A DNA stretch of 22,726 bases from a virus. Every line of letters starts with the position of its first letter. The stretch's first letter is position 1. The stretch lies in IMG/VR virus record IMGVR_UViG_3300025030_001109, positions 1 through 22,726 of that record; one strand, given 5' to 3'. A program made the position numbers and the translations under genes. Below the pieces are notes generated by a model. It did no database searches, was not told the DNA's origin, and worked only from the letters and a program-made list of their open reading frames with translations. Shown piece after piece: positions 3,879-21,097 of this stretch.

Positions 3879-4214
3879 TTAAACCACACAAATAAATTCA
3901 AATATACTGTTTGCCAAACTACCAACTTTGAATGAACTTAAAAGCATTTCATTTTCAAGCCCATTACTTATACTATCTTGGCATTTTAATCTGCTATTTG
4001 AATTGTTGTTTAGATCAAAATTTATATCGCTTCCGATTGGAGTGAAAATAAATACCCTTGCTACAGTTGTATCACCAGTTCTTGGGTCTTCTAAATAAAA
4101 TACCTGATTGTCTATGCCTGTAGTAATTTGATTTATTAACTCATTAAAACTAAAATTATCATTAGACCTTAATATAGCACCACAATAATGTGTTCCTGCA
4201 TAAAAATTACTCAT
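3879..4214 (-). CDS. Small protein, 111 aa, unknown function
   Basis: The ATG has GAGAGGTGG upstream. The protein has no membrane segment or signal peptide. It looks mixed alpha/beta, with FSFNELINQITTGIDNQVFYLEDPRTGDTTVARVFIFTPIG followed by an Asn-rich stretch (DLNNNSNSRL) and ending IFEFICVV. It is followed after 17 bases by the tail-collar fibre, so it is probably co-expressed with it and may be an appendage or assembly factor. I do not recognise a family. Confidence 0.65.
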   Translation of the reverse strand: MSNFYAGTHYCGAILRSNDNFSFNELINQITTGIDNQVFYLEDPRTGDTTVARVFIFTPIGSDINFDLNNNSNSRLKCQDSISNGLENEMLLSSFKVGSLANSIFEFICVV

Positions 4215-4240
4215 TTATAAACCACCTCTCAATTAAAATT

Positions 4241-4269
4241 AAATACGTTTTTATTTTTATAACGTATTT
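4241..4269 (-). repeat. 9-bp inverted repeat in the leader of the 111-aa gene
   Basis: AAATACGTT and AACGTATTT flank an eleven-base AT-rich centre. It stands between the terminator at 4319 and the ribosome binding site of the 111-aa gene, so it may be a second terminator or a leader hairpin. The rest of the 140-base gap holds no reading frame. Confidence 0.5.
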
Positions 4270-4318
4270 TTAGTTCATTCCTTTCTTTAATTATTTTTGA
4301 GAGGGTAGGGTGAGAAAA

Positions 4319-4346
4319 GGGAAGAGAATAGTTATAATCTCTCCCC
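4319..4346 (-). terminator. Rho-independent terminator after the XhlA-like gene
   Basis: GGGGAGAGA and TCTCTTCCC form a 9-bp stem (one G-U pair) with a ten-base loop, followed on the minus strand by TTTTC. It lies nine bases after the stop codon region of the 144-aa gene. Confidence 0.7.
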
Positions 4347-4354
4347 AAATTTAA

Positions 4355-4789
4355 TTATTTTATATATTGTGATATATAATATATGATTCCACCAGAAATT
4401 AAAATTGGAATTACGGATTCTTTAACATATATTAAAAAATCAAACTTACTTCGACCATCAATTTTATCTACTTTATTTTCAAGACTTGCAACACGATCAC
4501 TTGTGTCTTTAGTTTCATTGTTTAATATATTTAAATTATCGTTTATTTTTCCGAGAGTCTCAGAAACAGACACATTAAATTTTGCTTGTTCTTTTTGTAA
4601 CACTTTAAGTTCTATAAGTGTTTCTTTAATACTAGATAAATCTTCCACTTTCTCTTGAATATTTTCAATTTTTGTTTGTATTTGAATAATTTTTTCTGAA
4701 TGAGAGTTAACTTCTTTGTAAATTTCTTCCATTATATTATTCACCGCACTTTCGTCATATATTTCTCCATTACTTTCATTAGTTTTCAT
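4355..4789 (-). CDS. XhlA-like coiled-coil protein with C-terminal membrane anchor, 144 aa
   Basis: A long heptad-like coiled coil spans residues 15-115 (HSEKIIQIQTKIENIQEKVEDLSSIKETL, then NDNLNILNNETKDTSDRVASLENKVDKIDGR). It is followed by one C-terminal hydrophobic segment (about 121-141, VKESVIPILISGGIIYYISQY). This is the layout of the XhlA/haemolysin family that accompanies holins in Bacillus phages; it is somewhat longer than the usual 70-90 residues. It has no enzyme motif. Position after the fibres and before a terminator fits a lysis-associated gene, but no holin or endolysin is visible in the window, so membrane anchoring of another structure is possible. Its ribosome binding site is in a hairpin (4790-4807). 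Confidence 0.6.
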   Translation of the reverse strand: MKTNESNGEIYDESAVNNIMEEIYKEVNSHSEKIIQIQTKIENIQEKVEDLSSIKETLIELKVLQKEQAKFNVSVSETLGKINDNLNILNNETKDTSDRVASLENKVDKIDGRSKFDFLIYVKESVIPILISGGIIYYISQYIK

Positions 4790-4807
4790 GGAGTTTTATA
4801 TCACTCC
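4790..4807 (-). promoter_or_regulatory. Ribosome binding site of the XhlA-like gene inside a short hairpin
   Basis: GGAGT (4807-4803) pairs with ACTCC (4794-4790) immediately before the ATG, with an eight-base loop. The usual start distance seen in neighbouring leaders (GGAGTGATATAA then start) is lengthened by the ACTCC to 14 bases. Translation of this gene would be dampened. Confidence 0.45.
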
Positions 4808-4843
4808 TTTCTTGTTAAGATTTATATTTTTAAATTATAATTT

Positions 4844-6307
4844 TTAACTAATTAAATTATAATCATTCTTAAACATCCATTTATATCCACCTGCCGTTTT
4901 TGCATGAGGAGCTTTTCTACAACATAAAGAAATGGTAGCTTGCTTTATTCCTGTTTGTCTTCCTGCTTCTGTACCACTTTCAAATTCTTTAATAAAATTA
5001 TCATTTAAATCTAATTGAACTACTGACTTACTAAATTTTATTTTTGCAAAATTACTAATTTTTTTACCATTATTATTTTTTATTTTTTTTACATTGTAAT
5101 CACACCAACCTAATTTTACACCTTGTTTTAAATATTTTGAAATGGTGGAATTATGTAATTGCATTATTTCCCCAATTTTCATTGTGTTTTCTACACAATT
5201 ATTCCACAAATCACATGCTACTTTAACCAAACTACTACAAGCATATTCATGACATTGTAACCAATTTATTTTAGATAAATCAAATATATTAGCTAATTCA
5301 CTATTCATAATACTATTCTTTATCCAATCTAAATCTGATTTTCTACAATCAATTTCTATATATTTATATCCATTTTTCTCTGCTAATTCTTTTTTTAATC
5401 TATCGCTTTCTTGTTCTTCTTTTAAAGTTCTTGCACCCGTATTCCCCCAATTGGTTTCTTCATAATGTTGTAAACCATGCATTTCAACCACAATTTTAAA
5501 GCCTTCACATGTAAAATCATATTTTTTATTTTCAGACCATTTTAATTTAGAATTATAAATATAATTAATACCTATTTGATTAAAAAATGAATTCCCTAAT
5601 TTTTCCGGGTAACTAATACCATCACTACAATTTGGACACGATGTTATTCCACTTTTAATACTATCGAATGAGCGTTTAAAAGAATTATTGCATTCTAAGC
5701 ATTTAATTTTAACTTTTTTGGTTGTTCCTTTGTATTCTTCAATTAATTTCATATTCAAATTATTTAATTTAAACCAATTATTCACATTTTGTTTTGCATA
5801 TATATTTTGTAAATGAAATTTTCTAGGGAATATGTCTCTTTTTATAACTCGTGTTTTTACATTGCTATACCAATATCCATCAGGGTCAATTAAAGTTATA
5901 AACGTATTATTTTTTATTATTTCAATTTTTTCTATTATCCAATCTTTTCCTAGTTTTTCATCTACTATATTTCTGATTTCATTTTCTTTAAGTCTAGTTT
6001 GAATTCCATTATCCTTAGTTGCACATTGTAAACAATAATATTTACCATCATTTTTAACAATACGTTTTAAATAATCCTGCCATACTACGTTTTTTAATTT
6101 TTTACCACATCCGTCACATTCTACATCAACTTTGACATTACTATGTTCTGATAAATCTTTAATTTTTACTAATATTTTTGTATGTTCTTTAACACATAAT
6201 TTGCTATTTTTATTTTTATATCTAGGTATTTCATATCCCTTTTCTTCAAAATGTTTAATACTACTTCCATTTAAACCAACCCAAACTTCTGTACTTACCA
6301 ATCCCAA
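4844..6307 (-). CDS. Homing endonuclease of Vsr/EDxHD type with zinc regions, HTH and NUMOD1, 487 aa
   Basis: The order of parts is: an N-terminal module shared with the HNH pseudogene (MGLVSTEVWVGLN), zinc site 1 (C64, C67, C92, C95), zinc site 2 (C203, C206, C224, C227), and a Vsr/PD-(D/E)XK-like nuclease core. The core shows SYPEKLGNSFF (E235), KYDF (D264), VVEMHGLQHY (E275, H277, H281), D302 and YIEIDC, as in the EDxHD family of phage endonucleases related to I-Bth0305I. A helix-turn-helix follows at about 371-400 (IGEIMQLHNSTISKYLKQG) and a NUMOD1-like unit at 426-480. The start is TTG, nine bases after AAGGAG. It is free-standing between the agr-like cassette and the XhlA-like gene; both neighbours are intact, so no intron is implied. 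Confidence 0.8.
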   Translation of the reverse strand: MGLVSTEVWVGLNGSSIKHFEEKGYEIPRYKNKNSKLCVKEHTKILVKIKDLSEHSNVKVDVECDGCGKKLKNVVWQDYLKRIVKNDGKYYCLQCATKDNGIQTRLKENEIRNIVDEKLGKDWIIEKIEIIKNNTFITLIDPDGYWYSNVKTRVIKRDIFPRKFHLQNIYAKQNVNNWFKLNNLNMKLIEEYKGTTKKVKIKCLECNNSFKRSFDSIKSGITSCPNCSDGISYPEKLGNSFFNQIGINYIYNSKLKWSENKKYDFTCEGFKIVVEMHGLQHYEETNWGNTGARTLKEEQESDRLKKELAEKNGYKYIEIDCRKSDLDWIKNSIMNSELANIFDLSKINWLQCHEYACSSLVKVACDLWNNCVENTMKIGEIMQLHNSTISKYLKQGVKLGWCDYNVKKIKNNNGKKISNFAKIKFSKSVVQLDLNDNFIKEFESGTEAGRQTGIKQATISLCCRKAPHAKTAGGYKWMFKNDYNLIS

Positions 6308-6354
6308 TTATATCCACTCCTTGATGTTTTATTGTTTTCCTTGTTTTTTTTAAA

Positions 6355-6427
6355 ATAAAAGAAGAGTGGAGTTACAAGGATATCCACTCTTTTCGATTAA
6401 GATGATCAGTCTTAACCTATCTCTTAT
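6355..6427 (-). ncRNA. Structured leader element C upstream of the Vsr/EDxHD-type endonuclease, or terminator of the agr-like cassette
   Basis: On the minus strand an outer stem (ATAAGAGA with TCTTTTAT, 6427-6420 and 6362-6355) encloses hairpin 1 (TTAAGA/TCTTAA, 7-nt loop) and hairpin 2 (AGAGTGGA/TCCACTCT, 6390-6383 and 6370-6363, 12-nt loop). The loop contains CCUUG, which can pair with CAAGG at 6343-6339 or 6323-6319. This is the same layout as elements A and B but without sequence identity, so the relation is only architectural. Hairpin 2 followed by TCTTTTATTTT would also serve as the terminator of the AgrB-like transcript. Confidence 0.4.
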
Positions 6428-6442
6428 AAAATTTTCTTGCTT

Positions 6443-7006
6443 TTAATTTTTATTTTCTCTCACAGTCAAAGCCGTACCAATCATAGCTAACGATATTGAA
6501 CAACATACTAAATTGCTTACATATGTATCAATAAACACACAAACAGCACCTATACTATAAAACAATAAAAAATAATTTATATAATTATTCCGATAATATT
6601 TATTTTTATATTTCTTTTCATCTTCATCTATTGTCGGTATAAACTTAATTATAAATACAGATGTGAAAATGCTAATAAAAAATACCAACATAGTTTGTTG
6701 GTATAAATACAATGTTAAATATGCTAAAAAACTCATGTAAATCGTGGATAAAAAAGTACAACTCTCCAAACTTTTTGCATGAACTCCCCCACTAAAAATT
6801 CTTAATACTCCGATAATAATCAACACTACTATTGATTGTAATAAACAATTAAGTATAATTCCTAATAATACTGTAAATAATATAATTAGGAATAAACTTA
6901 AATAACTTTTTATCTTATAATCTATTTCGTCATATTGATCATATGTTAATTTTCCACTTTTAATTAACTTGCATAATATATAGTTGCTAATTGTGTCAAA
7001 AAACAT
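6443..7006 (-). CDS. AgrB-family membrane peptidase, 187 aa
   Basis: AgrB proteins are polytopic membrane cysteine endopeptidases that cut and help export and cyclise AgrD peptide precursors. The diagnostic region is seen at residues 69-83: RIFSGGVHAKSLESC, matching R-x-x-x-GG-x-H-A plus a Cys seven residues after the His (H76 and C83, spaced as H77/C84 in Staphylococcus aureus). Hydrophobic segments flank it (about 35-68, 84-103, 106-125, 141-160, 163-182). The length fits the family. The ATG has GGAGTGATTGA upstream. No AgrD-like gene follows it; the only peptide gene nearby lies upstream at 7137-7220. No AgrA response regulator or kinase domain is in the cassette, so signalling would depend on host proteins. 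Start and family are well supported; the substrate is not. Confidence 0.88.
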   Translation of the reverse strand: MFFDTISNYILCKLIKSGKLTYDQYDEIDYKIKSYLSLFLIILFTVLLGIILNCLLQSIVVLIIIGVLRIFSGGVHAKSLESCTFLSTIYMSFLAYLTLYLYQQTMLVFFISIFTSVFIIKFIPTIDEDEKKYKNKYYRNNYINYFLLFYSIGAVCVFIDTYVSNLVCCSISLAMIGTALTVRENKN

Positions 7007-7051
7007 TCAATCACTCCAATACACAAACACAGATACTAACATAACCAAAAA

Positions 7052-7074
7052 GGACTACCCGATATGGATAGCCC
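7052..7074 (-). terminator. Rho-independent terminator between the peptide and agrB-like genes
   Basis: GGGCTATCC and GGGTAGTCC form a 9-bp stem (two G-U pairs) with loop ATATC, directly followed on the minus strand by TTTTTGG. It would end most transcripts after the peptide gene, with partial read-through into agrB-like, giving more peptide than peptidase. Confidence 0.75.
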
Positions 7075-7081
7075 CTATGAT

Positions 7082-7109
7082 TATATTACTTATTACTCAT
7101 TACTCATTA
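7082..7109 (-). repeat. Tandem 7-bp repeats (TAATGAG-type) between peptide and agrB-like genes
   Basis: On the minus strand four units read TAATGAG, TAATGAG, TAATAAG, TAATATA. The units superpose stop and start codons (TAATGA) in changing frames. This may be simple-sequence slippage, or a spot for stop-restart translation between the peptide gene and agrB-like. Confidence 0.5.
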
Positions 7110-7136
7110 TTCAGTTTTTAGTTATTTAGTTGTAGA

Positions 7137-7220
7137 TTACTTTTTTACTTCTTCTTTTTTAGTTTCAGTTTGCTTTTGAGTGTTTACTTTCGCAGGTTTA
7201 CCAAAATAGAAACCACCCAT
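7137..7220 (-). CDS. 27-residue peptide gene next to AgrB-like peptidase, candidate AgrB substrate
   Basis: A very strong ribosome binding site (AAAAAGGAGGTGG, six bases before the ATG) opens a frame of 27 codons. The peptide begins MGGFYFGKPAK and ends with a highly charged tail KKEEVKK; the middle is Gln/Thr rich. Its place, directly before agrB-like, suggests the signal precursor (AgrD role), and the aromatic FYFGKP core followed by a charged tail loosely recalls AgrD cores. However, it has no Cys or Ser for the usual (thio)lactone, lacks the N-terminal amphipathic helix of AgrD, and lacks the usual P-x-E-L tail. It may be an unusual AgrB substrate or an unrelated small peptide. A terminator follows it, so it would be the most abundant product of the transcript. 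Confidence 0.6.
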   Translation of the reverse strand: MGGFYFGKPAKVNTQKQTETKKEEVKK

Positions 7221-7245
7221 AAGAACCACCTCCTTTTTACAAATA

Positions 7246-7267
7246 GTGTGTATTAATACTTACACAC
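7246..7267 (-). repeat. 7-bp inverted repeat upstream of the 27-residue peptide gene
   Basis: GTGTGTA and TACACAC flank an eight-base centre (7253-7260). The repeat lies between the stop of the 148-aa gene and the strong ribosome binding site of the peptide gene. It could be an RNA hairpin setting mRNA stability or a binding site; nothing decides between them. Confidence 0.35.
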
Positions 7268-7274
7268 ATTTATA

Positions 7275-7721
7275 TCATTCCTTTTTTTTTATATATTTTT
7301 TCATTAATATTACTAAATATATTTGAACAAAATATACGGGAAGTGCTAAAATATATTCTTTTATTCCAAAAGAAACTTTAGACAAATCTACATCTAAAAA
7401 TATATTTAATAAAACAACAATTATTACTTCAGTAATTAAAAGAAAAACAAAAAATAAAATAGAAAATTTTAATGTCTTTATTAATTTTACATTTAATACA
7501 ATTGTATAAATTAATGAAGAATACATTATTATAAATAAAAATGGGAAAAATAATTGTGGTATTATATTTCTAAATATTGTATGACATAAAGACAATGATA
7601 AAATTAAAATTATCCATTGTTTTTTAGATATTTTTATATTTACAATTGATACCATAAATAATACTGACATATATGCCGTTAGTAAACTACTAAATATCCA
7701 TGTCATCATTAATTTTTCCAT
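7275..7721 (-). CDS. AgrC-like membrane sensor without a kinase domain, 148 aa
   Basis: About five hydrophobic segments are visible (residues 7-29, 34-52, 54-77, 84-109 and 125-142), ending abruptly in KKYIKKKE. The pattern and size resemble the polytopic N-terminal sensor half of AgrC-type histidine kinases, which bind AgrD-derived peptides; the dimerisation and ATPase domains that should follow are absent, and no downstream fragment of them is present. The start ATG has GAGGAA five bases upstream and lies 32 bases inside the 113-aa gene. Its neighbour two genes on is an AgrB-family peptidase, which supports a peptide-signalling context. Alternatives are a generic membrane immunity protein or a YrvL-like protein. 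The AgrC relation is by topology, not by a catalytic motif, so it is tentative. Confidence 0.55.
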   Translation of the reverse strand: MEKLMMTWIFSSLLTAYMSVLFMVSIVNIKISKKQWIILILSLSLCHTIFRNIIPQLFFPFLFIIMYSSLIYTIVLNVKLIKTLKFSILFFVFLLITEVIIVVLLNIFLDVDLSKVSFGIKEYILALPVYFVQIYLVILMKKYIKKKE

Positions 7722-8031
7722 TTTTATTCCTCACAATCCATAATATCAAATCTGCCCAACAATCTAAACCTTCAAATTTATCTAACAAATGATAATATTC
7801 TTTATACTTAGGATTTAATGCTTTATTACGTTTACTCAATGATAATAAACAACATCTATCAATTTCAACTTTATATGTATCTAATTTATATGTCAATAGT
7901 AAAATATCTTCACCGCTTTTATCAGCCATTATTCTTATATTAATATTATTTGGCTCACATAAAGTATTTTCAATATAGTCTAAATTTTTCTCATTTAAAC
8001 AATTCCTAGAATACCACAGTGAATTTTTCAC
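7690..8031 (-). CDS. Small soluble protein, 113 aa, unknown function
   Basis: The start is GTG, ten bases after AAAGGGT at the end of the 114-aa membrane gene. The protein has no membrane segment. It looks alpha/beta, with INIRIMADKSGEDILLLTYKLDTYKVEIDRCCLLS in the middle and an amphipathic Trp-containing C-terminus (LDKFEGLDCWADLILWIVRNK). It has four Cys residues (C11, C25, and the C59-C60 region) and another near position 91, without a recognisable metal-binding spacing. Its last 32 bases overlap the next gene, suggesting tight coupling. It may be the soluble partner of the 114-aa protein, mirroring the 66-aa and 124-aa pair; this is inference from layout. Confidence 0.62.
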   Translation of the reverse strand: MKNSLWYSRNCLNEKNLDYIENTLCEPNNINIRIMADKSGEDILLLTYKLDTYKVEIDRCCLLSLSKRNKALNPKYKEYYHLLDKFEGLDCWADLILWIVRNKNGKINDDMDI

Positions 8032-8038
8032 AATATAT

Positions 8039-8383
8039 TTAACCCTTTCTTTTAGAAATCTCAGACATAATTAATTGTCTGGTGTTTCTATGAAGTTTTT
8101 CTAAATTGTCCTGGGTTAAATAATTTTCTTGTAATATCATTTGTAGTAATTCTTTTATAATTACATTATCTTTTTTAAGTTGAGTCCCTTGATATGCTAA
8201 AAATATAAACATCCATAAAACCAAACAAAAAAATAAACAGAAGAAAAGAAATTGATCACTTTCAAAAATAAGTCTAGCTTGATAATAATAGTCTCTTCCA
8301 AAATATATAAGACAAATTACAACAATCAAACTAATAATTATAGTTAAATTAAAAACATTAACTATCTTTTTACAATCTTTCAA
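8039..8383 (-). CDS. Two-pass membrane protein, 114 aa, unknown function
   Basis: Hydrophobic segments lie at about residues 9-28 (VFNLTIIISLIVVICLIYFG) and 44-66 (FLFFCLFFCLVLWMFIFLAYQG). They are followed by a charged, probably coiled cytoplasmic region (IIKELLQMILQENYLTQDNLEKLHRNTRQ) ending ISKRKG. This ending resembles that of the 66-aa protein (KNKKKG), including the AAAGGGT that serves the next gene. The start is TTG at 8383, eleven bases after AGGAGG. An ATG at 8390, four bases after it, opens a six-codon frame (MYFERL, stop TAA) that overlaps the TTG; it could be a leader peptide. First gene after the consensus promoter. No family recognised. Confidence 0.65.
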   Translation of the reverse strand: MKDCKKIVNVFNLTIIISLIVVICLIYFGRDYYYQARLIFESDQFLFFCLFFCLVLWMFIFLAYQGTQLKKDNVIIKELLQMILQENYLTQDNLEKLHRNTRQLIMSEISKRKG

Positions 8384-8394
8384 AATACATGAAT

Positions 8395-8433
8395 CCTCCT
8401 TTCTTTTCTTTTATTATATAGTAAGAAAGGAGG
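8395..8433 (-). repeat. 11-bp perfect inverted repeat covering the ribosome binding site
   Basis: CCTCCTTTCTT (minus strand, 8433-8423, inside the promoter spacer) is the exact complement of AAGAAAGGAGG (8405-8395), which contains the ribosome binding site of the 114-aa gene. Only RNA arriving from upstream carries both arms. RNA started at the promoter begins after the first arm. Confidence 0.75.
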
Positions 8434-8441
8434 GATGTCAA
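8413..8441 (-). promoter_or_regulatory. Near-perfect sigma-A promoter of the agr-like cassette
   Basis: TTGACA (8441-8436) and TATAAT (8418-8413) are separated by exactly 17 bases on the minus strand, both matching consensus. The predicted start is near 8406, giving a leader of about 20 bases with AGGAGG. It would drive the 114-aa, 113-aa, 148-aa, 27-aa and AgrB-like genes. A consensus vegetative promoter inside a phage late region is typical of morons, cargo genes expressed independently of the lytic programme. Confidence 0.85.
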
Positions 8442-8466
8442 TATATTTATATTAATATTTTAATAA

Positions 8467-8841
8467 TTATTTTAACAAATCAAAAATACTTTTCTTTTTA
8501 CTAGGTTCAAATTTATGATTTGAAGACACCCATTTTAAAACCTGAAAGTAATTATGGAAATTTCTGGATTCTATATGAAACTTTTCCTTGCCCTTAGGAT
8601 TTTGGCTAAAATTAAAATGCTTGAGATAGAGCAGATCATCTTTTTCTTTATGAAAAACAATATATCGGTTAGCATTATGGCAGATTTCCAATTCATTTGG
8701 AACATCTTCATATAATCCAGTTAATTCATTCCTTTCATATGAATACAATACATTCAATCGCATATTACCAAAGTATTGTTCATTCATCTCTAAAACTGAA
8801 TCTAAATTATCCTTTAATAAATTATGAAAAACTTTATCCAT
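8467..8841 (-). CDS. Small soluble protein, 124 aa, unknown function
   Basis: The start chosen is the ATG at 8841, nine bases after GGGTGA, right behind the 66-aa membrane gene (14 bases downstream of its stop). The open frame extends back to a TTG at 8919, but that part is only an out-of-frame reading of the 66-aa gene and lacks a ribosome binding site. The protein is charged, with a leading helix (KVFHNLLKDNLDSVLEMNEQYFG) and a mixed alpha/beta remainder rich in His and aromatic residues (ICHNANRYIVFHKEKDDLLYLKHFNF), ending in a basic tail (EPSKKKSIFDLLK). No membrane segment or known motif. Possibly a cytoplasmic partner of the 66-aa protein, inferred from coupling only. Confidence 0.6.
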   Translation of the reverse strand: MDKVFHNLLKDNLDSVLEMNEQYFGNMRLNVLYSYERNELTGLYEDVPNELEICHNANRYIVFHKEKDDLLYLKHFNFSQNPKGKEKFHIESRNFHNYFQVLKWVSSNHKFEPSKKKSIFDLLK

Positions 8842-8854
8842 CCATAATCTCAGT

Positions 8855-9055
8855 TCACCCTTTCTTTTTATTTTTGTTTTGTAATAATAACATTTGTTGA
8901 GTTGTTCTTTCTTCTTCAATTAACCAATCAAAATATTTTTGTGTATGTCTTTTTAACAAAAAATATATAATCCATTGATTAAAAATTAACAATACTACTA
9001 ACATAACTAATAATATATTTATCATCCCATAATTTATAGGGCAAAGATAAACCAT
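8855..9055 (-). CDS. Single-pass membrane protein, 66 aa, unknown function
   Basis: One hydrophobic segment (about residues 11-34, MINILLVMLVVLLIFNQWIIYFLL) is followed by a basic-amphipathic cytoplasmic helix that ends QNKNKKKG. The stop overlaps the ribosome binding site of the next gene (AAAGGGTGA). Its own ribosome binding site is poor: GGG lies only two bases before the ATG, and AAGGG is 17 bases away, so a start at 9025 is possible. It is the first gene after the direct repeats at 9107-9143. The architecture (membrane segment plus short helix ending in KKKG, then a soluble partner) recurs in the pair at 8039-8383 and 7690-8031. No family recognised. Confidence 0.6.
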   Translation of the reverse strand: MVYLCPINYGMINILLVMLVVLLIFNQWIIYFLLKRHTQKYFDWLIEEERTTQQMLLLQNKNKKKG

Positions 9056-9106
9056 GCCCGTTTTATTTCAGTCCCTTCTCAATTAATTTTACAATACAAT
9101 TCACCT

Positions 9107-9143
9107 TCATATATGACCGTTTAACCTCGTATATGACCGTTTA
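9107..9143 (-). promoter_or_regulatory. Two direct repeats resembling a LytTR-type (AgrA/ComE family) operator
   Basis: A 17-bp sequence (TCxTATATGACCGTTTA on the plus strand) occurs at 9107-9123 and 9127-9143 with one difference, a 20-bp period. Each copy contains ACCGTTTA, which fits 8 of 9 positions of the LytTR consensus [TA][AC][CA]GTTN[AG][TG]. The LytTR family typically binds two such boxes about two helical turns apart. On the minus strand a possible -10 (TAAAAT, 9091-9086) lies downstream with no good -35, as for an activator-dependent promoter. The box orientation relative to the minus-strand genes is the reverse of the usual one, so assignment to this operon is tentative. Confidence 0.5.
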
Positions 9144-9152
9144 CCAACAATA

Positions 9153-9186
9153 AAATCATAATGAAATGAGCATTTTGTAATGATTT
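9153..9186 (-). terminator. Imperfect terminator hairpin after the 657-aa fibre gene
   Basis: AAATCAT and ATGATTT (7 bp) flank an interior that continues as an imperfect stem, followed on the minus strand by TATTGTTGG. It marks the end of the fibre transcript just before the regulatory repeats of the agr-like cassette. Confidence 0.4.
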
Positions 9187-9195
9187 ATTATTCGA

Positions 9196-11169
9196 TTAAA
9201 TTGAAAATCCTTTGCCACTCATCAACCATCCATCTACCCAATGACTATTTGTATTAGATGCATTATTTCTTGCTCCAATTCCTGTATATCCACCAGTTAT
9301 ATCAATTAAAGCTGTATGTGTATAATCAATTTTAATTGTCCCGTCCCAAGATATTTTTACCTTACCAACAGTTCCTGTATTGTCAACAATAATGCTTACA
9401 TCATGCCATGCATCGTCATCAATTCCAGTTTGTGATATTTCTGCAAGAAGTCCAATTTCATCAAAGTATAAAGGGTTATGTAGCTTAATTTTATCTAATG
9501 ATTCAGAAAATACAACCATCACTCCTGTTGACATCGCATCCATCGTATTTATAAATCCAGCTTCACTTATTGGTGCTCCGTTTGTACCAATATATATCCA
9601 AGTGTTAAGTCCTCCATTCCCTCCACTAGAACGTATTTTTGTTTTCATACTTACATAATTTGGCAAGTTAATATTCCATTGAAGATTACCTTGAACATTT
9701 GTAGAAGTATCAGTTAGTCTTACTATTTTATTTATTGTACTATAAGCAGCAGTATTAGTATAAATATCCATATTGCCATAAGTACCTAACATTGGATACA
9801 TAGAAATAGTTGGATTAGAATTACCATTCCAATAAAGCAACACTTGCTGTGGAGTATTGATCCACGATCTATCACCAGAAATAGTTGATGATAATACCAT
9901 TCCATCTTCAGATGGATTACCCAATATATTTTCTTTTGATTCTACTAAATTGTTTGCTATATATTGTATATAATGTCCTATATTTTCTTCAGTTCCAGAA
10001 ATACTTCTAGGTAGTATAATTCTGTACCATGTGCCATCAGAACCATCAGCATTCACTCCGACATCACCTTCAAATTGTACATCAACACAAAACATTTCAT
10101 AATTTTGGTCTGTATTACCATCTAACATAACATCAACTTTTGTTAACTTACGAACATCATTAAAAGTCACTACTAATTCAAGGAATACCTCTGCTCTATG
10201 ATTTCTTGGTCTACCTACATCTGCCGATGAACTACTTTCATAAAACATACTTCCATCATTAGCCATTGTTAAATTACTGCTACTATATTTACCAGTTGCC
10301 CATGTTAGCATTGTGTTATTAGCATAATTGTTATTCTCATCATAAAATAAAAACCTTTGCATATCAACATTTTCAGAATCAAGCGAATTACCAGAAATAC
10401 GAAGTCTTGCTTTTTTAATTTTTTTCCAACCTAAATCCATTATAAACTCAGGGGTATAAGACTCATTATCAATAATAATCCATTTATAAGAAGTATCTAA
10501 AGATGCTGTAAAATTATATTGCATAGAACCAGATGAAACCATGTCCCGCCATATTCCATCTGCCCCATTAGCATTTGATCCTGCTTCAGATTCTATTTGT
10601 ACAGCTAAAGACATTGCATGATATTTACCAGTATGTGTATTTGTGCCAGCAAATATAAGTCTATCTATTTCTTTAGCTAAACCATCGGCAAAACTTAATG
10701 TAAATTCTACAAATGTTCCATCATAAGTGCTACTTGTAGGTATGTTACATACAGTCCATGGAACATGTTCCCCGTACTCGAAACCAAAATGAGTAATTGT
10801 AGGATTAAGATTATAACTTGAATTAGCCCCTTTTGTAATTACAAAATCTGTTGGATCATCAGTCCAACTTCCTCCTAATGGTTTTACAGAAAAATGACCA
10901 AGCATAGCTTCATTATTAATATCATTCGCAGAAATACGAATTCTAAATTTTTTTATTTTATATCCTTTAAATGATAAAATAGTTGATGGTATTGAAGATA
11001 TAGTTTCGGTTGATTCACTAGCACCTATCTCTATGCCACCAGGAGTCTGAGAATCACCTATCCATAATCTTGGTTTGCCATTGTCATTTGAAACAATAGG
11101 TTCTCCAAACTTTGGTATAATAGATGTACGATTTGATTCTTGCCCTCTTTTAAAAATGATATCAGCCAT
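9196..11169 (-). CDS. Tail fibre with Mtd-like N-terminus and LamG-like C-terminus, 657 aa
   Basis: Residues 3-45 carry the same attachment domain as the 409-aa protein (IIFKRGQESNRTSI, FGEPIV, KPRLWIGDS). Two long beta repeats follow at roughly 60-215 and 225-385, recognisable from YKIKKFRIRISAND / WKKIKKARLRISGNS and from AVQIESEAGSNANGADGIWRDMV / DVQFEGDVGVNADGSDGTWYRII. The last 220 residues (from about 440) form a concanavalin-like jelly-roll (WIYIGTNGAPISEAGF, AWHDVSIIVDNTGTVGKVKISWDG), typical of LamG carbohydrate-binding domains. The gene follows the 409-aa fibre after only 13 bases, so the two are co-transcribed. Likely role: recognition of a host surface glycan. Confidence 0.82.
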   Translation of the reverse strand: MADIIFKRGQESNRTSIIPKFGEPIVSNDNGKPRLWIGDSQTPGGIEIGASESTETISSIPSTILSFKGYKIKKFRIRISANDINNEAMLGHFSVKPLGGSWTDDPTDFVITKGANSSYNLNPTITHFGFEYGEHVPWTVCNIPTSSTYDGTFVEFTLSFADGLAKEIDRLIFAGTNTHTGKYHAMSLAVQIESEAGSNANGADGIWRDMVSSGSMQYNFTASLDTSYKWIIIDNESYTPEFIMDLGWKKIKKARLRISGNSLDSENVDMQRFLFYDENNNYANNTMLTWATGKYSSSNLTMANDGSMFYESSSSADVGRPRNHRAEVFLELVVTFNDVRKLTKVDVMLDGNTDQNYEMFCVDVQFEGDVGVNADGSDGTWYRIILPRSISGTEENIGHYIQYIANNLVESKENILGNPSEDGMVLSSTISGDRSWINTPQQVLLYWNGNSNPTISMYPMLGTYGNMDIYTNTAAYSTINKIVRLTDTSTNVQGNLQWNINLPNYVSMKTKIRSSGGNGGLNTWIYIGTNGAPISEAGFINTMDAMSTGVMVVFSESLDKIKLHNPLYFDEIGLLAEISQTGIDDDAWHDVSIIVDNTGTVGKVKISWDGTIKIDYTHTALIDITGGYTGIGARNNASNTNSHWVDGWLMSGKGFSI

Positions 11170-11182
11170 AATTTACAATCAC

Positions 11183-12412
11183 CTACGATTCATTGGTTAC
11201 ATATGAACCAATTATATTAATAGTAATTAATGATGGTGCAGGTAATCGAATATCTGGAGTTCCAATAAAGACACTAGGAGTCCCAAAAAACACCAATGCA
11301 TATATTGGTACATATTGTGATGCAAATGTACTATTTGCTACAGAAATAATACTATCAGTTCCAACTTTAGTTTTAGGCAATGTATAAGAACCCATCAAAT
11401 ATCTACCTGCCGTGAAATTACTAAGTCCGAATGATAAATTAAAATTAACTTTATCATCAATTCTAGTATAAATTGCTTTATAAAGTTCTGTTGTTGCACC
11501 TGAAATATCAGGGTCTACAGATGTGAATGTAATGGTTGGAACCCAAGAGCCTGTTTCTATTTTATTTAAAACTTTATGTGTTGGGTAAGCATTTAAAAAT
11601 TTACCTCCATTATCAGTTATTGAAATGATATAACTCTCATTTGGTTTTATAGTTAATGAGGTAGTTATAGTATTTGATGTCCCATCTCTTACAAATGCAC
11701 CAGCGAATCCAGTAGGTGTAAGCGTTTTATTAACACCAGAATCAGTATTTGTTAGTCTTACCAAAAAAGTGTCAGTTAAAATATGTGTCGCATTTATAGT
11801 TGCATTTCCTGTACTTTCAAAATGAATTTCGGAATCATTGTGAGATTGGGCAATAGCCAAATTGCTTGCTCCAATATGAACCGTACTTTGTTTACCTCTT
11901 AATTGTTTTTCAACTAAAGTTTGACTGAACATCGGAAAGACATTTAAATATTTCGAGCCTCCGCTATTTGTGACAGTAACAATGTAACTCTCATCATGAG
12001 CTATAGTTAATTCTGATATTGAAGTCATAGTACCGTCACGCATAAATGAGCCAGCAAAATTTGACATAAAAAGATTTCTGTCTTCTCCTGCGTCAGTATT
12101 TACAATGTGAAATCCAAAAGTGTCATCTATAATGTCATTGGCATTTATTGTTAAATTACCTATGCCCTCAAGGTGAATCTCCGCGTCATTATGAGAACTT
12201 AGTATAGCTAAATCAGTTCCTCCAACATGTATTGTTTCCTTTTTATAGCCTGATGACGAACTACTACCTCCTGAAATCAAATTTCCTCCAACCGTAGTTC
12301 CATCTCCAATATAGAATTTTTTATCAGCCCATATTGGTTCACCGTCAGAAGGGGTTATTGTAAGTCTTTCTGCATCCGAGCCTTTACGGAAATTTATTTT
12401 TTGTGCGCACAT
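11183..12412 (-). CDS. Tail fibre with Mtd-like N-terminus and internal duplication, 409 aa
   Basis: Residues 5-45 (INFRKGSDAERLTI, GEPIWADKKFYIGDG) match the short N-terminal domain of phage tropism determinants and fibres (Mtd N-terminal type, with the xFxRGT and GEP..D..K..IGDG pattern). Residues 58-162 and 174-279 are two tandem copies of one beta domain (LAILSSHNDAEIHLEGIGNLTINAN and LAIAQSHNDSEIHFESTGNATINAT; FAGSFMRDGT and FAGAFVRDGT; ESYIVTVTNSGGSKYLN and ESYIISITDNGGKFLN). A C-terminal beta region (GSWVPTITF to the end) is of the kind often found at fibre tips. The ATG is preceded by AAGGAAGGAATG. Role: attachment fibre, inferred. No C-type-lectin variable region or reverse transcriptase is seen. 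Confidence 0.82.
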   Translation of the reverse strand: MCAQKINFRKGSDAERLTITPSDGEPIWADKKFYIGDGTTVGGNLISGGSSSSSGYKKETIHVGGTDLAILSSHNDAEIHLEGIGNLTINANDIIDDTFGFHIVNTDAGEDRNLFMSNFAGSFMRDGTMTSISELTIAHDESYIVTVTNSGGSKYLNVFPMFSQTLVEKQLRGKQSTVHIGASNLAIAQSHNDSEIHFESTGNATINATHILTDTFLVRLTNTDSGVNKTLTPTGFAGAFVRDGTSNTITTSLTIKPNESYIISITDNGGKFLNAYPTHKVLNKIETGSWVPTITFTSVDPDISGATTELYKAIYTRIDDKVNFNLSFGLSNFTAGRYLMGSYTLPKTKVGTDSIISVANSTFASQYVPIYALVFFGTPSVFIGTPDIRLPAPSLITINIIGSYVTNES

Positions 12413-12444: not shown

Positions 12445-12476
12445 AAAAAGAAGCAGTTATTAAACCACTTCTTTTT
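12445..12476 (-). terminator. Rho-independent terminator overlapping the end of the HNH pseudogene
   Basis: On the minus strand a 14-bp stem (AAAAAGAAGTGGTT with AACTGCTTCTTTTT, two G-U pairs) has a four-base loop TAAT that includes the TAA stop. A short T run is part of the 3' arm. It would isolate the endonuclease gene from the fibre gene downstream. Confidence 0.7.
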
Positions 12477-13554
12477 TATTTTTATTTTTATAACGATATG
12501 TTTTTTGTCTTTTACTTCTATCTTTATTATCATGTATTACATTTGAATGATAATCTTTATTTACTGTGATACCAATATCCAATGTATGTTTGGATAATAC
12601 ATATTGAATTATTTCTTCCCTATTATCATTAATATCTCCAAGCTTATCTCTAGCTTCTTGAACTATATCTGCTAATTCCCATAAATGATGAACTTGTAAA
12701 TTGCGTTTTCCACCTATAAATTGACAAGTAAAATTATCACGTTCCATCACATTAAAACGCCATTGTTTATATTCATCTCTACATCTTATAATGTTGTGAA
12801 TATAACTTACTCCACCCTTCCAGTTTCCATTTTTATTACCAATTAAAAATTCAGTTTCTTTTCTTGTTCTTAACGTTTTTTCTCTTCGTTCATCCGTCCA
12901 AATTTTTCCTATCATCCATGGTCTATATTTTGGTGAATTATCTCTCATTTTTTGTCTTGTTTCTTCTGAATGATTTTTACCTTTCATACCAAGGTCATAA
13001 TCGCTAGGTTTATTAATTGGTATATTATAACGATGTATTAATCTAACAATTGTTTTTTCTGGTATCTTTATTTCATCTGATATTTTTTTAGCACTTTTAA
13101 TGTTTATTACATATTCATTAAAAAGATAGTTTCTAATTGAGTCATAATCATCTACACCAAGGATTTCAAGAAAACGCTTTTTATGAGGTATTTTATTCTT
13201 GCCAGTTTTGTTTGTTATTTTCGGTTTGTTTACTAAAACAATTTCATTTCCAACTTTTATTTTCTTACCTAATTTTATAGCCTTAATGTCATCTAAACAT
13301 TTTCTACAACAATATCTACCATCTTCAAAAACACTTCTTATATAATCTTTATACATCATAGGTTTTAAATAAGGACTTTTACAGTATTCACAATCACACT
13401 TAACATCTACGTATGAAGTGCTTCCACTAGTTAAATCTTCAACTTTTACTTCAAATTCATCTTTCCATTTAGTAAAAATATATTCTTTAGACTCATACCA
13501 TTGCTTATTCCTAACATTTCATTTTACCATTACAGTTTTAGTTATCAATCCCAT
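12460..13554 (-). pseudogene. HNH homing endonuclease interrupted by an in-frame TGA
   Basis: The original start is the ATG at 13554, seven bases after AAAGGAGA. The frame reads MGLITKTVMVK, then TGA (13521-13519), then continues as NVRNKQWYESKEYIF without further stops to 12460. Residues 1-25 align without gaps, across the stop, with the N-terminus of the endonuclease at 4844-6307, so the stop is inside the old coding region. Next come a four-Cys zinc-binding region (VKCDCEYCKS and RYCCRKC), a helix-turn-helix-like region, a NUMOD3-like segment (GKNHSEETRQKMRDNSP) and an HNH domain with QVHHL, then GITVNKDYHSNVIH. The only later start, at 13359, has no ribosome binding site and would lose half the zinc region. 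The CxxC usually next to the HNH His pair is also missing (CQFIGG). Probably a recent single-base inactivation. Confidence 0.8.
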
Positions 13555-17807: not shown

Positions 17808-18941
17808 TCAAATTACATTTTCTAATAAAGTATCTTCATTATTTTCTTTGTAATACCACTTTAAACCATATGCAGTTTTCTTTTCTCCTCTTGCGGTTTT
17901 ATTAATTGCTTGTTTATATGCATTCTCTTTTGGTCTACTAATAATCTTTGAATTACCATTTTTAATTAAATAATCAACAGCATCTTTAATATCATCAAAA
18001 TCATATCTATTACCATTTTTATCTATGGCATATACTGATATAGAATCTTCTGATCTGTCTACATTATTATTGTTGAGAATATCACTTACAGCTTTTAAAC
18101 AACATTTAAAATATTCAGCAGTTTTATATATTAATCTACAATCAAGATAATAATTAATCACTTCTTCTTCATTTAGATATTTTTTATTTCCATTTTCATC
18201 CCATATGAAACGTGATCGTGTTTTTCTAAGTCTTTCAATATTATTATTATTAAGAATTTTACTTATAGCTTCATGATAGTGCCCAAAATGTTTTACAGTA
18301 TCTTCTATTGATTTACATTCCAAATAATAATTTATTATCTCTTCTTCATCTAAATCATATCTAGTATGACCATCTCTTTTTATATCATTTTTAACAAGAA
18401 TTTTACGAATTGTTTCATCATTAACACCAAAAAACTCTGCTGTTTTAAAAGTTGACCTACAATCTAAATAATATTTAATCACTTCATCATGGTCTAAATC
18501 TTTATTTTTAATACCATTTTTACGTAATATACTATATATTGGACTTATGCTACATCCAAAAAACTCCGCTGTTATATACGCATTTTTACATTTTAAATAA
18601 TGATCAATAACTTCAGATTCATCTAAGTCACAACCCTTATTGCCTCCACCACCTAATGTACTGTTATAACCATTATTATAACTATCATAATAAGCAATCC
18701 ATTTTATTTCTACATCATCTAATTGGTCGATAGAAACTTTTTCAATTTCTTCAATTATAAAATTATCTTTACCATATTTGCGTATTGCACGACAAAAATG
18801 AGTATCTATTCCCATATTTGCATTAGAACAATGTCCTGTCCATCTATAATTTAATGGCTGTACAGTTTGCCCAATATAAACCTTATTATTTATTTTATTA
18901 GTTATCTTATAAATACTACCAAACATTACTTCATCACTCAT
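17808..18941 (-). CDS. GIY-YIG homing endonuclease with four tandem helix-turn-helix repeats, 377 aa
   Basis: The GIY-YIG domain occupies residues 7-100: S9-I10-Y11, Y22-I23-G24, R33, E78 and N93 in the expected order. It is followed by four tandem units of about 40 residues at roughly 105-146, 148-187, 195-236 and 255-296. Each has the pattern LDxxEVIxYYLxCxxxxxTAEFFG, then xxxTIRKILxKNxI, and looks like a helix-turn-helix. A NUMOD1-like unit closes the protein (about 301-366, from VYAIDKNGNRYDF to AYGLKWYY). This array should read an extended DNA target. The ATG at 18941 lies 13 bases after GGAGG, longer than usual; the shared leader with the gene at 21097 suggests about five bases were inserted. 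Free-standing between a tail gene and its paralogue. Confidence 0.88.
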   Translation of the reverse strand: MSDEVMFGSIYKITNKINNKVYIGQTVQPLNYRWTGHCSNANMGIDTHFCRAIRKYGKDNFIIEEIEKVSIDQLDDVEIKWIAYYDSYNNGYNSTLGGGGNKGCDLDESEVIDHYLKCKNAYITAEFFGCSISPIYSILRKNGIKNKDLDHDEVIKYYLDCRSTFKTAEFFGVNDETIRKILVKNDIKRDGHTRYDLDEEEIINYYLECKSIEDTVKHFGHYHEAISKILNNNNIERLRKTRSRFIWDENGNKKYLNEEEVINYYLDCRLIYKTAEYFKCCLKAVSDILNNNNVDRSEDSISVYAIDKNGNRYDFDDIKDAVDYLIKNGNSKIISRPKENAYKQAINKTARGEKKTAYGLKWYYKENNEDTLLENVI

Positions 18942-19906: not shown

Positions 19907-21097
19907 TTAAGAAACTTTTTCAAAAATATAACCACCAGTTGATATTTGTTTTCCACAAAGGCAATTACTAATACTTTTATGGTTTAATCCTAATTCATTA
20001 GCGCAATCTACTTGGCTATCATAAATACCTATAAATTTGTTTGTATTTTTTTCATGTACCTCAAATTCATATTTCAAAAATTTTAAACTTTGAGTTTTAT
20101 TACATAATTCATTTAATTTTTCTTCAGAATAATCTTCTTCATAAATAAAAACATATCCTTTTGCAAAATAATGTTTTTTTCTTAAACAACCACTAATATT
20201 AGATGCGTCTATATTTAATTCTTTTGCGCATTCTTGTTGCAAACTAAACTTACCAACAAATTTTTTATCATCTTTTTTATAAACATAAAATGGCTTGGCA
20301 TTTAAGTTTATATTACATAATTCTTTTACTTTATCTTCTGCATATTCATGTTTATATATAAAAATATAATTATTCACAGAATAAGTTTTATCTTTTAAAT
20401 ATTTCCTAATATCACCATCGCTTTTTATATTTATATTTAAATCTATCATGCATTTATTTATTGTGTCATATTCTCCAATAAAATTTTCTGTATATTTTTC
20501 AAAAACTAAAAACGGTTTTGACTCAACCATTTCATAAATTTCTTTTAATTTATCTTCGTTATATTCATCCTTATAAATAAAAATATAACCATTAAACATA
20601 TTTTGTTTACCTTTTAAACACTTACGAATATAACCAGAATAATTTATATCTAAATTTCTACTGCATTCTGATGAATTTATCCATTCTCCTATAAACTCTC
20701 TGTCTTTAAAAACATAAAAAGGTTTTGCTCCTCCAGTAATTGCTAACTTTAATTTCGTTTCATCAGAATGTTTTACACCCAATGGGGAACCTGCCGTTGG
20801 TAAAACATTATAACACTTATTTTTATTATCAAAATAAATATCTAAATAATATTGTTCTCGTTCTATTAACTTATCAACATCTTCTACATATTCTAATACT
20901 TCAAATTTAAAAGTATTAATTCCATATTTATTAAATGCATTTTGTAAATACGGATTTTTATGACAATTTGTCATAAGACTACTAAAATGCTGAGATTTTC
21001 TATTATATAAATTAACTGTACTCCCAACATATAACTTTCCATTAACCAAATTTACAATCTTATAAATACCACTTTTACCCTTTAATTCATCACTCAC
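19907..21097 (-). CDS. GIY-YIG homing endonuclease with four NUMOD1-like repeats, 396 aa
   Basis: A free-standing homing endonuclease that would nick or cut DNA to spread its own gene. The catalytic domain covers residues 1-100: G10-I11-Y12, Y23-V24-G25, a basic R33, candidate metal-binding Glu at 79/81, and N97. A NUMOD3-like segment (GVKHSDETKLKLA) lies at 107-119. Four copies of a NUMOD1-like DNA-binding unit follow at about 125-175, 194-248, 268-320 and 343-394, each with a K/Y-F-x-V-F/Y strand, a FIGE/FVGK turn, a Cys-containing helix and a GYIFIY-type end. The start is GTG, eight bases after GGAGG. The gene lies between two paralogous tail genes and follows structured element A. The leader GGAGGTTGATT and the N-terminus MSDE are shared with the GIY-YIG gene at 17808-18941, although the catalytic domains differ. 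Confidence 0.88.
   Translation of the reverse strand: MSDELKGKSGIYKIVNLVNGKLYVGSTVNLYNRKSQHFSSLMTNCHKNPYLQNAFNKYGINTFKFEVLEYVEDVDKLIEREQYYLDIYFDNKNKCYNVLPTAGSPLGVKHSDETKLKLAITGGAKPFYVFKDREFIGEWINSSECSRNLDINYSGYIRKCLKGKQNMFNGYIFIYKDEYNEDKLKEIYEMVESKPFLVFEKYTENFIGEYDTINKCMIDLNINIKSDGDIRKYLKDKTYSVNNYIFIYKHEYAEDKVKELCNINLNAKPFYVYKKDDKKFVGKFSLQQECAKELNIDASNISGCLRKKHYFAKGYVFIYEEDYSEEKLNELCNKTQSLKFLKYEFEVHEKNTNKFIGIYDSQVDCANELGLNHKSISNCLCGKQISTGGYIFEKVS

Follow-up and report, generated by a model that had tools for sequence, protein, structure and literature searches.

An agr-type unit with AgrB and a kinase-less AgrC-sensor-type protein in a likely temperate Bacillota phage

We analysed a 22,726-base stretch of viral DNA, the IMG/VR virus record IMGVR_UViG_3300025030_001109 (hereafter the window), and found that this phage carries an agr-type unit that is intact and self-contained. 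On the minus strand, between 8441 and about 6350, the unit comprises, in order, a promoter, genes for proteins of 114, 113 and 148 amino acids (aa), a gene for a 27-aa peptide, a hairpin, agrB and an end hairpin. The 187-aa product of agrB is, by its sequence, a true AgrB, and the 148-aa protein is best interpreted as the receptor part of AgrC without the kinase. With moderate confidence, we read the unit as an AT-rich moron that the lysogen expresses and that would alter the agr-type peptide signalling of the host through AgrB and the bare receptor. The original prediction had placed the novelty of the cassette in its missing kinase. That central claim falls because Bacillota loci are commonly kinase-less and because phages Davies, Emery and Abouo were already described in 2014 as carrying AgrB, AgrD and kinase-less AgrC-like proteins (PMC3901668). 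Unusual features of the present unit are a peptide that is not AgrD-like, the combination of promoter, gating hairpin and end hairpin, and four small proteins of the cassette region without recognised relatives.

AgrB and the stand-alone sensor

The agrB gene (6443-7006, minus strand) encodes a protein that matches PF04647 with an E-value of 2.1e-22 and 79.8 bits (cut-off 23). The R, G, H and C of its active-site block are invariant in an alignment of 10 AgrB sequences; His76 and Cys83, which we take to be the catalytic residues, are both kept and fall in such invariant columns. The AgrB-family peptidase with its His and Cys that had been proposed from the DNA alone is thus borne out, and peptidase action on an AgrD is its predicted function. 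Among annotated phages, AgrB had no match at E 1e-5, with four Brevibacillus records appearing only at E 2-9; a clostridial-type AgrB query found none in annotated phages at E 0.01, and the AgrB query found none in plasmids at E 10. Alignments to viral contigs gave nine loci, two of the present phage and seven of the Davies/Abouo type, and a further search of viral contigs with AgrB returned three loci, all within the same seven Davies/Abouo-type contigs.

The whole window is 100% identical to part of one 98,268-base IMG/VR contig, and a 40,625-base IMG/VR contig has 100% identity to the window across the 10,561 bases compared. These three identical contigs represent one phage met three times and provide no independent evidence. 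In its large terminase, the phage shares 40% identity with Thomasclavelia phage TR-TP1 and about 34% with SPbeta-group phages. Since two Pfam integrase-family proteins are encoded on the 98-kilobase (kb) contig, the phage probably is temperate. We consider it likely to be a temperate Bacillota phage, and its hosts are probably Gram-positive-type bacteria.

The gene at 7275-7721 (minus strand) encodes the 148-aa membrane protein of AgrC-sensor type, with five helices in a structure model and no kinase domain. Searches of Pfam, PHROGs and NCBIfam gave no match for this protein at E up to 1. A profile of 16 stand-alone sensors, from which the phage protein was left out, scored it at 14.2 bits (best of 1,000 shuffles, 10.0), and a profile of 44 sequences, again without the 148-aa protein, scored it at 22.0 bits (best of 5,000 shuffles, 14.6; reversed sequence, 1.2). 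Comparison to the sensors by hhalign covered 132 columns with a probability of 92.2, an E-value of 5.8e-7 and a score of 41.6, with a maximum score of 21.1 among 200 shuffles. Among 161 other hydrophobic open reading frames (ORFs), the AgrB-adjacent sensor-like ones had hhalign scores of at least 32.6, and the next-best other ORF scored 21.1. The sensor profile also hits the sensor half of a full-length AgrC, in locus L038, at 74 bits. Given these matches by profile, by hhalign, among hydrophobic ORFs and to a full-length AgrC, the receptor half of AgrC is the best reading of the 148-aa protein.

The sensor part fills all 148 aa, and the protein has no GHKL kinase domain. No kinase was found at E up to 1 with a local kinase profile among ORFs of at least 60 aa on the 98,268-bp contig, a scan run in six pieces, so that an ORF spanning a piece border could escape. 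There also was no PF04397 (LytTR) match on this contig, nor one with a local LytTR profile. These results agree with the AgrC-sensor-like membrane protein lacking a kinase that had been anticipated. By its sensor match, a size near 150-170 aa and a position 268 nucleotides (nt) before agrB (a gap that includes the peptide gene), the gene is of the stand-alone AgrC-sensor type found beside AgrB.

When 398 Bacillota genomes were searched with the 148-aa protein, 45 had a match at E up to 0.1, mostly noise, and an AgrC-type gene was not seen in 10 of the 20 loci examined by eye. Two weaker matches (E 0.08 and 0.05), however, are membrane proteins of 159 and 170 aa directly adjoining AgrB genes. 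The relatives of the 148-aa protein are thus stand-alone sensors directly beside AgrB and not members of an unrelated membrane family, one half of the outcome that would have undone the original prediction. A fold search of viral models with the 148-aa protein found two phage proteins, from ctOSJ35 and ctGns7, of 165 aa (probability 1.00, TM score 0.60, E 0.028) and 158 aa (0.99, 0.59 and 0.14), which at these E-values are only suggestive.

Stand-alone sensors of this type were found in 22 of 30 sampled Bacillota AgrB loci, and 16 of these 22 loci had no kinase within the stretch, about 3.5 kb long or shorter at some contig ends; some of the same loci had supplied the sensors, recognised by eye, from which the profile used for counting was made. 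Wider stretches, available for 14 of the 16, contained a kinase match in three (L096, L113 and L114, that of L113 being weak) and none in 11, some of which stop at a contig end. In a second set of 30 loci, collected by searching with the present AgrB, 19 carried a stand-alone sensor, 18 of them without a kinase in the stretch; the two samples share genomes and are not independent. The 20 wider regions were chosen from 30 loci in favour of those with a sensor already seen, and no sensor rates were taken from them. Judged from these sequences, a kinase-less sensor together with AgrB is a common bacterial arrangement. In some loci, for example L096, L098, L099, L118, L119 and L121, a separate kinase follows the stand-alone sensor, which makes a role as a receptor subunit plausible. 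We also noted two or three stand-alone AgrC-type sensors per AgrB in L097 (2747-3821), L113, L154, L161 and L164. Among the publications listed in our literature searches, none names stand-alone kinase-less AgrC sensors in its title or the opening of its abstract.

Peptide gene, promoter, RNA hairpins and small proteins

The 27-aa peptide gene (7137-7220, minus strand), likewise expected from the original prediction, has a strong Shine-Dalgarno sequence before its ATG. It adjoins agrB and has its own ribosome-binding site, as expected of an AgrD gene by position. However, the peptide contains neither Cys nor Ser for (thio)lactone closure, and, by eye, it begins MGGFYFGKPAKV and has a single Pro, with neither an amphipathic N-terminal helix nor a P-x-x-P tail. 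Among the 30 bacterial loci from the search with the present AgrB, 26 have an AgrD-like peptide near agrB, and all 26 carry Cys or Ser together with P-x-x-P (by eye). By sequence, then, the only peptide gene of the unit lacks the defining features of AgrD. A search for relatives of the peptide with a degenerate DNA pattern gave nine viral stretches, of which two were the present phage and seven had no short peptide gene; in these seven, the motif region lay inside a longer ORF (five stretches) or had no complete ORF (two stretches).

The promoter (8413-8441, minus strand) is of the sigma-A type, TTGACA-17-TATAAT, with 12 of 12 consensus positions. It is the only perfect -35/-10 match in the window, and shuffled sequences contained a mean of 0.08 such matches, with at least one in 7 of 100 shuffles. 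An inverted repeat predicted by folding (8395-8433, minus strand) spans the -10 box; its fold has -19 kcal/mol for 86 nt, and 1 of 200 shuffles was equally stable. In an RNA reading through this region, the Shine-Dalgarno sequence of the 114-aa gene is predicted to be paired (unpaired probability 0.00 for five of its bases and 0.34 for the remaining one of the six), whereas in an RNA starting at 8406 the same bases are predicted to be partly free (0.44-0.67). Eight GGAGG-type sites that precede minus-strand ORFs in the window were compared, and this one is the most hidden. By folding, the region thus resembles T4 gene e in its gating: the Shine-Dalgarno sequence is paired in read-through RNA and freer in promoter-made RNA, and the promoter overlaps the 5´ arm of the hairpin.

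Three further hairpins are predicted on the minus strand. A weak 7-bp hairpin (7246-7267) lies directly before the peptide gene. Between the peptide gene and agrB, a terminator-like hairpin of 11 pairs (7050-7076) folds with -26.5 kcal/mol for 76 nt, a stability reached by none of 200 shuffles; it is a possible attenuator that would give more peptide than AgrB. A terminator-like hairpin with a loop of 12 and a T-rich tail lies past agrB (6350-6390; -11.3 kcal/mol), and 2 of 200 shuffles were equally stable. Searches of the window from 4000 to 11300 against Rfam at gathering scores gave no match, nor did PADLOC or a comparison of the DNA from 6300 to 9200 to annotated phages.

Downstream of the promoter, the first gene (8039-8383, minus strand) encodes the 114-aa protein, with two predicted transmembrane segments (by eye) and a soluble tail, and the second (7690-8031, minus strand) encodes the soluble 113-aa protein from a GTG start; neither has recognised relatives. 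Genes for a soluble 124-aa protein (8467-8841) and a 66-aa protein with one transmembrane segment (8855-9055) lie on the same strand, and their membership in the unit is uncertain. The two membrane/soluble pairs of small proteins that had been described are present, and the unit has the promoter of its own that had been proposed, but the 66-/124-aa pair does not lie under it, since the promoter is downstream of that pair.

The 113-aa protein had no relative outside the present phage in viral contigs, genome contigs or annotated phages, apart from one match among 299 genomes (E 0.0026, 56 residues of a 597-aa frame). The 114-aa protein had none in annotated phages and only partial matches in 7 of 289 genomes (E 0.003-0.009), mostly in long or interrupted frames. 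For the 124-aa protein, viral contigs gave solely the present phage, annotated phages gave none, and 3 of 289 genomes gave partial matches (E 0.002-0.007). We take these weak genome matches to be chance; they sit on contigs other than those of the listed AgrB genes, so that the co-occurrence of these families with AgrB elsewhere that had been suggested was not found. The 66-aa protein had no recognised relatives in family-library searches, the only searches made with it.

The N terminus of the 114-aa protein weakly matches LiaS (E 4.6e-4; 19.5 bits, where the cut-off is 450), which hinted that the protein might be the N-terminal part of a split kinase. We rejected this idea because a profile built from residues 1-135 of ten kinase ORFs gave the protein a score of 12.3, and the best of 100 shuffled sequences reached 18.4. 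A duplication of one small-protein pair was similarly rejected, the pairs not being detectably homologous: 42 (soluble) and 190 (membrane) of 2,000 shuffles reached the observed score. The 113-aa protein had no DNA-binding or regulator match in family libraries, and its structure model is unusable, with a predicted local distance difference test (pLDDT) value of 38. We consider the 114- and 113-aa proteins the part of the unit most likely to hold something new.

Flanking the unit are a tail-type gene of 657 aa, so named by eye, and, immediately downstream, a homing-endonuclease-like gene (NUMOD1, DUF4379). The lysis side of the proposed flanks is thus not borne out by the immediate neighbour, and the 144-aa gene called lysis-like has only weak coiled-coil-type matches, one of many being to a holin PHROG (E 0.02). 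Endonuclease-like genes are interspersed among the tail genes at window positions 4844-6307, identified by Pfam, and 12460-13359, 17808-18941 and 19907-21097, identified by eye. Elsewhere within the phage, locus L012 17342-18688 (contig 82341-83687) encodes a protein with RRXRR and HNH, an arrangement that we take to be IscB-like. Near the contig start, on the minus strand, locus L013 3916-7665 encodes a 438-aa FtsK/SpoIIIE-type ATPase accompanied by several small membrane proteins, in the orientation opposite to the phage genes and resembling, by eye, a plasmid or conjugation-type module.

Possible roles of the unit

The reading that we favour starts from computed features: the identity of AgrB, the sensor relation, the lack of kinase and LytTR matches, the promoter match and the predicted RNA elements. 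The four longer ORFs of the unit have 17-24% GC, compared with 32-34% in three tail genes. The region from 8441 to 6350 (minus strand) may be an AT-rich moron that is self-contained and of one kind with those Bacillota agr-type loci in which the sensor stands alone. Transcription by host-type RNA polymerase would start at the unit's promoter, most probably in the lysogenic state, and the first gene would be poorly translated from tail-gene read-through transcripts because the hairpin hides its Shine-Dalgarno sequence. Membrane-bound AgrB would cut a peptide, either a host AgrD or, less typically, the 27-aa peptide of the phage, and the kinase-less 148-aa receptor would bind the peptide and either give a host-encoded kinase a new input or shield the lysogen from the signal. 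Overall, agr-type communication of the lysogen would be altered, to the advantage of the phage. Expression in the lysogen, processing of a peptide, its binding by the receptor and the consequences for the host are the steps that we infer.

Several observations weigh against this reading. The support is computational, and a host agr system and a matching kinase are assumptions. The relation to AgrC sensors is distant: a BLASTP search with a single AgrC sensor half gave no match, the modest score with the 16-sequence profile came with a bias term of 32, and the five-helix model (pLDDT 76) fits no solved structure, with a best PDB fold match at E 2.1. The signal may be incomplete, as the peptide of the phage does not resemble AgrD. 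Ahead of the 113-aa start, where there is no GGAGG-type site, the RNA is predicted to be just as fully paired (0.00), so hiding as such is not unique to the first gene. AT-richness is shared by the adjacent endonuclease-like gene and the 144-aa gene (25% GC each), and the peptide gene itself has 31% GC. Finally, the contig is classed as linear, which often means a fragment, and a distant kinase or regulator could be missing.

The adjacency of peptide gene, receptor gene and agrB in one apparent transcript unit also raises the possibility of a complete, phage-made communication system. Here, the 27-aa peptide would be a new type of AgrB substrate that leaves the cell and is detected by the 148-aa receptor, and the signal would pass through the 114- and 113-aa proteins of the same unit, counting infected neighbours and timing lysis or lysogeny. 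The strong ribosome-binding site of the peptide gene and the terminator-like hairpin after it would favour peptide over AgrB, and the SPbeta-group phages, distant relatives by terminase, use arbitrium peptide communication. We nonetheless consider such a system unlikely, given a peptide without the ring residues, helix or P-x-x-P motif that the bacterial comparison would lead one to expect and a 113-aa protein with neither a regulator match nor a meaningful model. A more specific version, in which AgrB processes a ring-less peptide of a new chemical type, the sensor signals through the 114- and 113-aa proteins with no phosphorelay, and the unit is translated only in RNA from its own promoter and not in late read-through RNA, is a long shot; if it were true, lysogens, and not dying cells, would talk.

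Since the contig gave neither a kinase nor a LytTR match and the phage has no recognisable AgrD of its own, it might instead carry the bare sensor as a decoy or for immunity, titrating or blocking the peptide of the host or of a rival phage, with AgrB disposing of or mis-processing host AgrD. This explanation seems doubtful to us: kinase-less sensors and AgrB are common in bacteria that have a normal AgrD, and a pure decoy is unlikely as their general role. The absence of a canonical AgrD, the shorter, diverged sensor and the lack of a known output gene could also be accounted for if the unit were a decaying leftover of a host agr locus, now functionless after the loss of AgrD and of any output. 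We judge this very improbable for a unit that retains uninterrupted ORFs, the AgrB catalytic residues, a perfect promoter, a predicted gating hairpin and an end hairpin. The cassette bears on three matters: the working of stand-alone AgrC sensors that have no kinase, the reason why phages carry parts of agr systems and the means of keeping a moron in a late operon silent during late transcription. It also is a compact natural construct for testing kinase-free receptor function.

Comparison with known systems

In T4 gene e, the Shine-Dalgarno sequence is known to be hidden in read-through RNA and freed in promoter-made RNA, and, as in the present unit, the promoter sits at the 5´ arm of the hairpin (PMC3014915). 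The present case differs in having a sigma-A-type promoter before a signalling operon, with gating predicted from folding alone. The Bacillota loci share the stand-alone sensor, mostly of 150-170 aa, beside AgrB and frequently without a nearby kinase, but most have a canonical AgrD-like peptide, and partners like the 114- and 113-aa proteins were not found in them.

Closest among phages are Davies, Emery and Abouo, which, as described in PMC3901668, combine AgrB with a kinase-less AgrC-sensor-like membrane protein and bear integrases. We compared cassette details for Davies and Abouo, relying for Emery on that description. Davies and Abouo have AgrD-like peptides of 39 and 42 aa, sensors of about 220 aa and a cassette near the integrase, whereas the present phage has no normal AgrD, a 148-aa sensor and a cassette among tail genes. 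They also carry LytTR-type proteins of 121 and 122 aa, in contrast to the present contig. The gene after AgrD, annotated as hypothetical in Davies (L016 4648-5013) and Abouo (L017 4630-4998), is of the LytTR type by Pfam, with a PF04397 match over the cut-off in Abouo (E 9.7e-7) and below it in Davies (E 0.0074). Similar short proteins occupy the same position, by eye, in L027 (4580-4930), L028 (4720-5115), L100 (4441-4776) and L101 (4280-4675), loci that include Brevibacillus reuszeri and Paenibacillus flagellatus. A sensor without a kinase, AgrB, AgrD and a LytTR protein together would make a kinase-free agr circuit. By analogy, the LytTR Regulatory Systems, whose membrane protein works without a phosphorelay (PMC6193735), may be a precedent for the Davies/Abouo type; in those systems a LytTR regulator goes with the membrane protein, unlike in the present phage. 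The agr3 locus of phage phiCDHM1 likewise pairs a phage AgrB with an AgrC-related gene, described in PMC3901668 as a GHKL kinase without an identified receptor domain. The two phages thus are opposites: phiCDHM1 carries a kinase without a receptor, and the present phage a receptor without a kinase.

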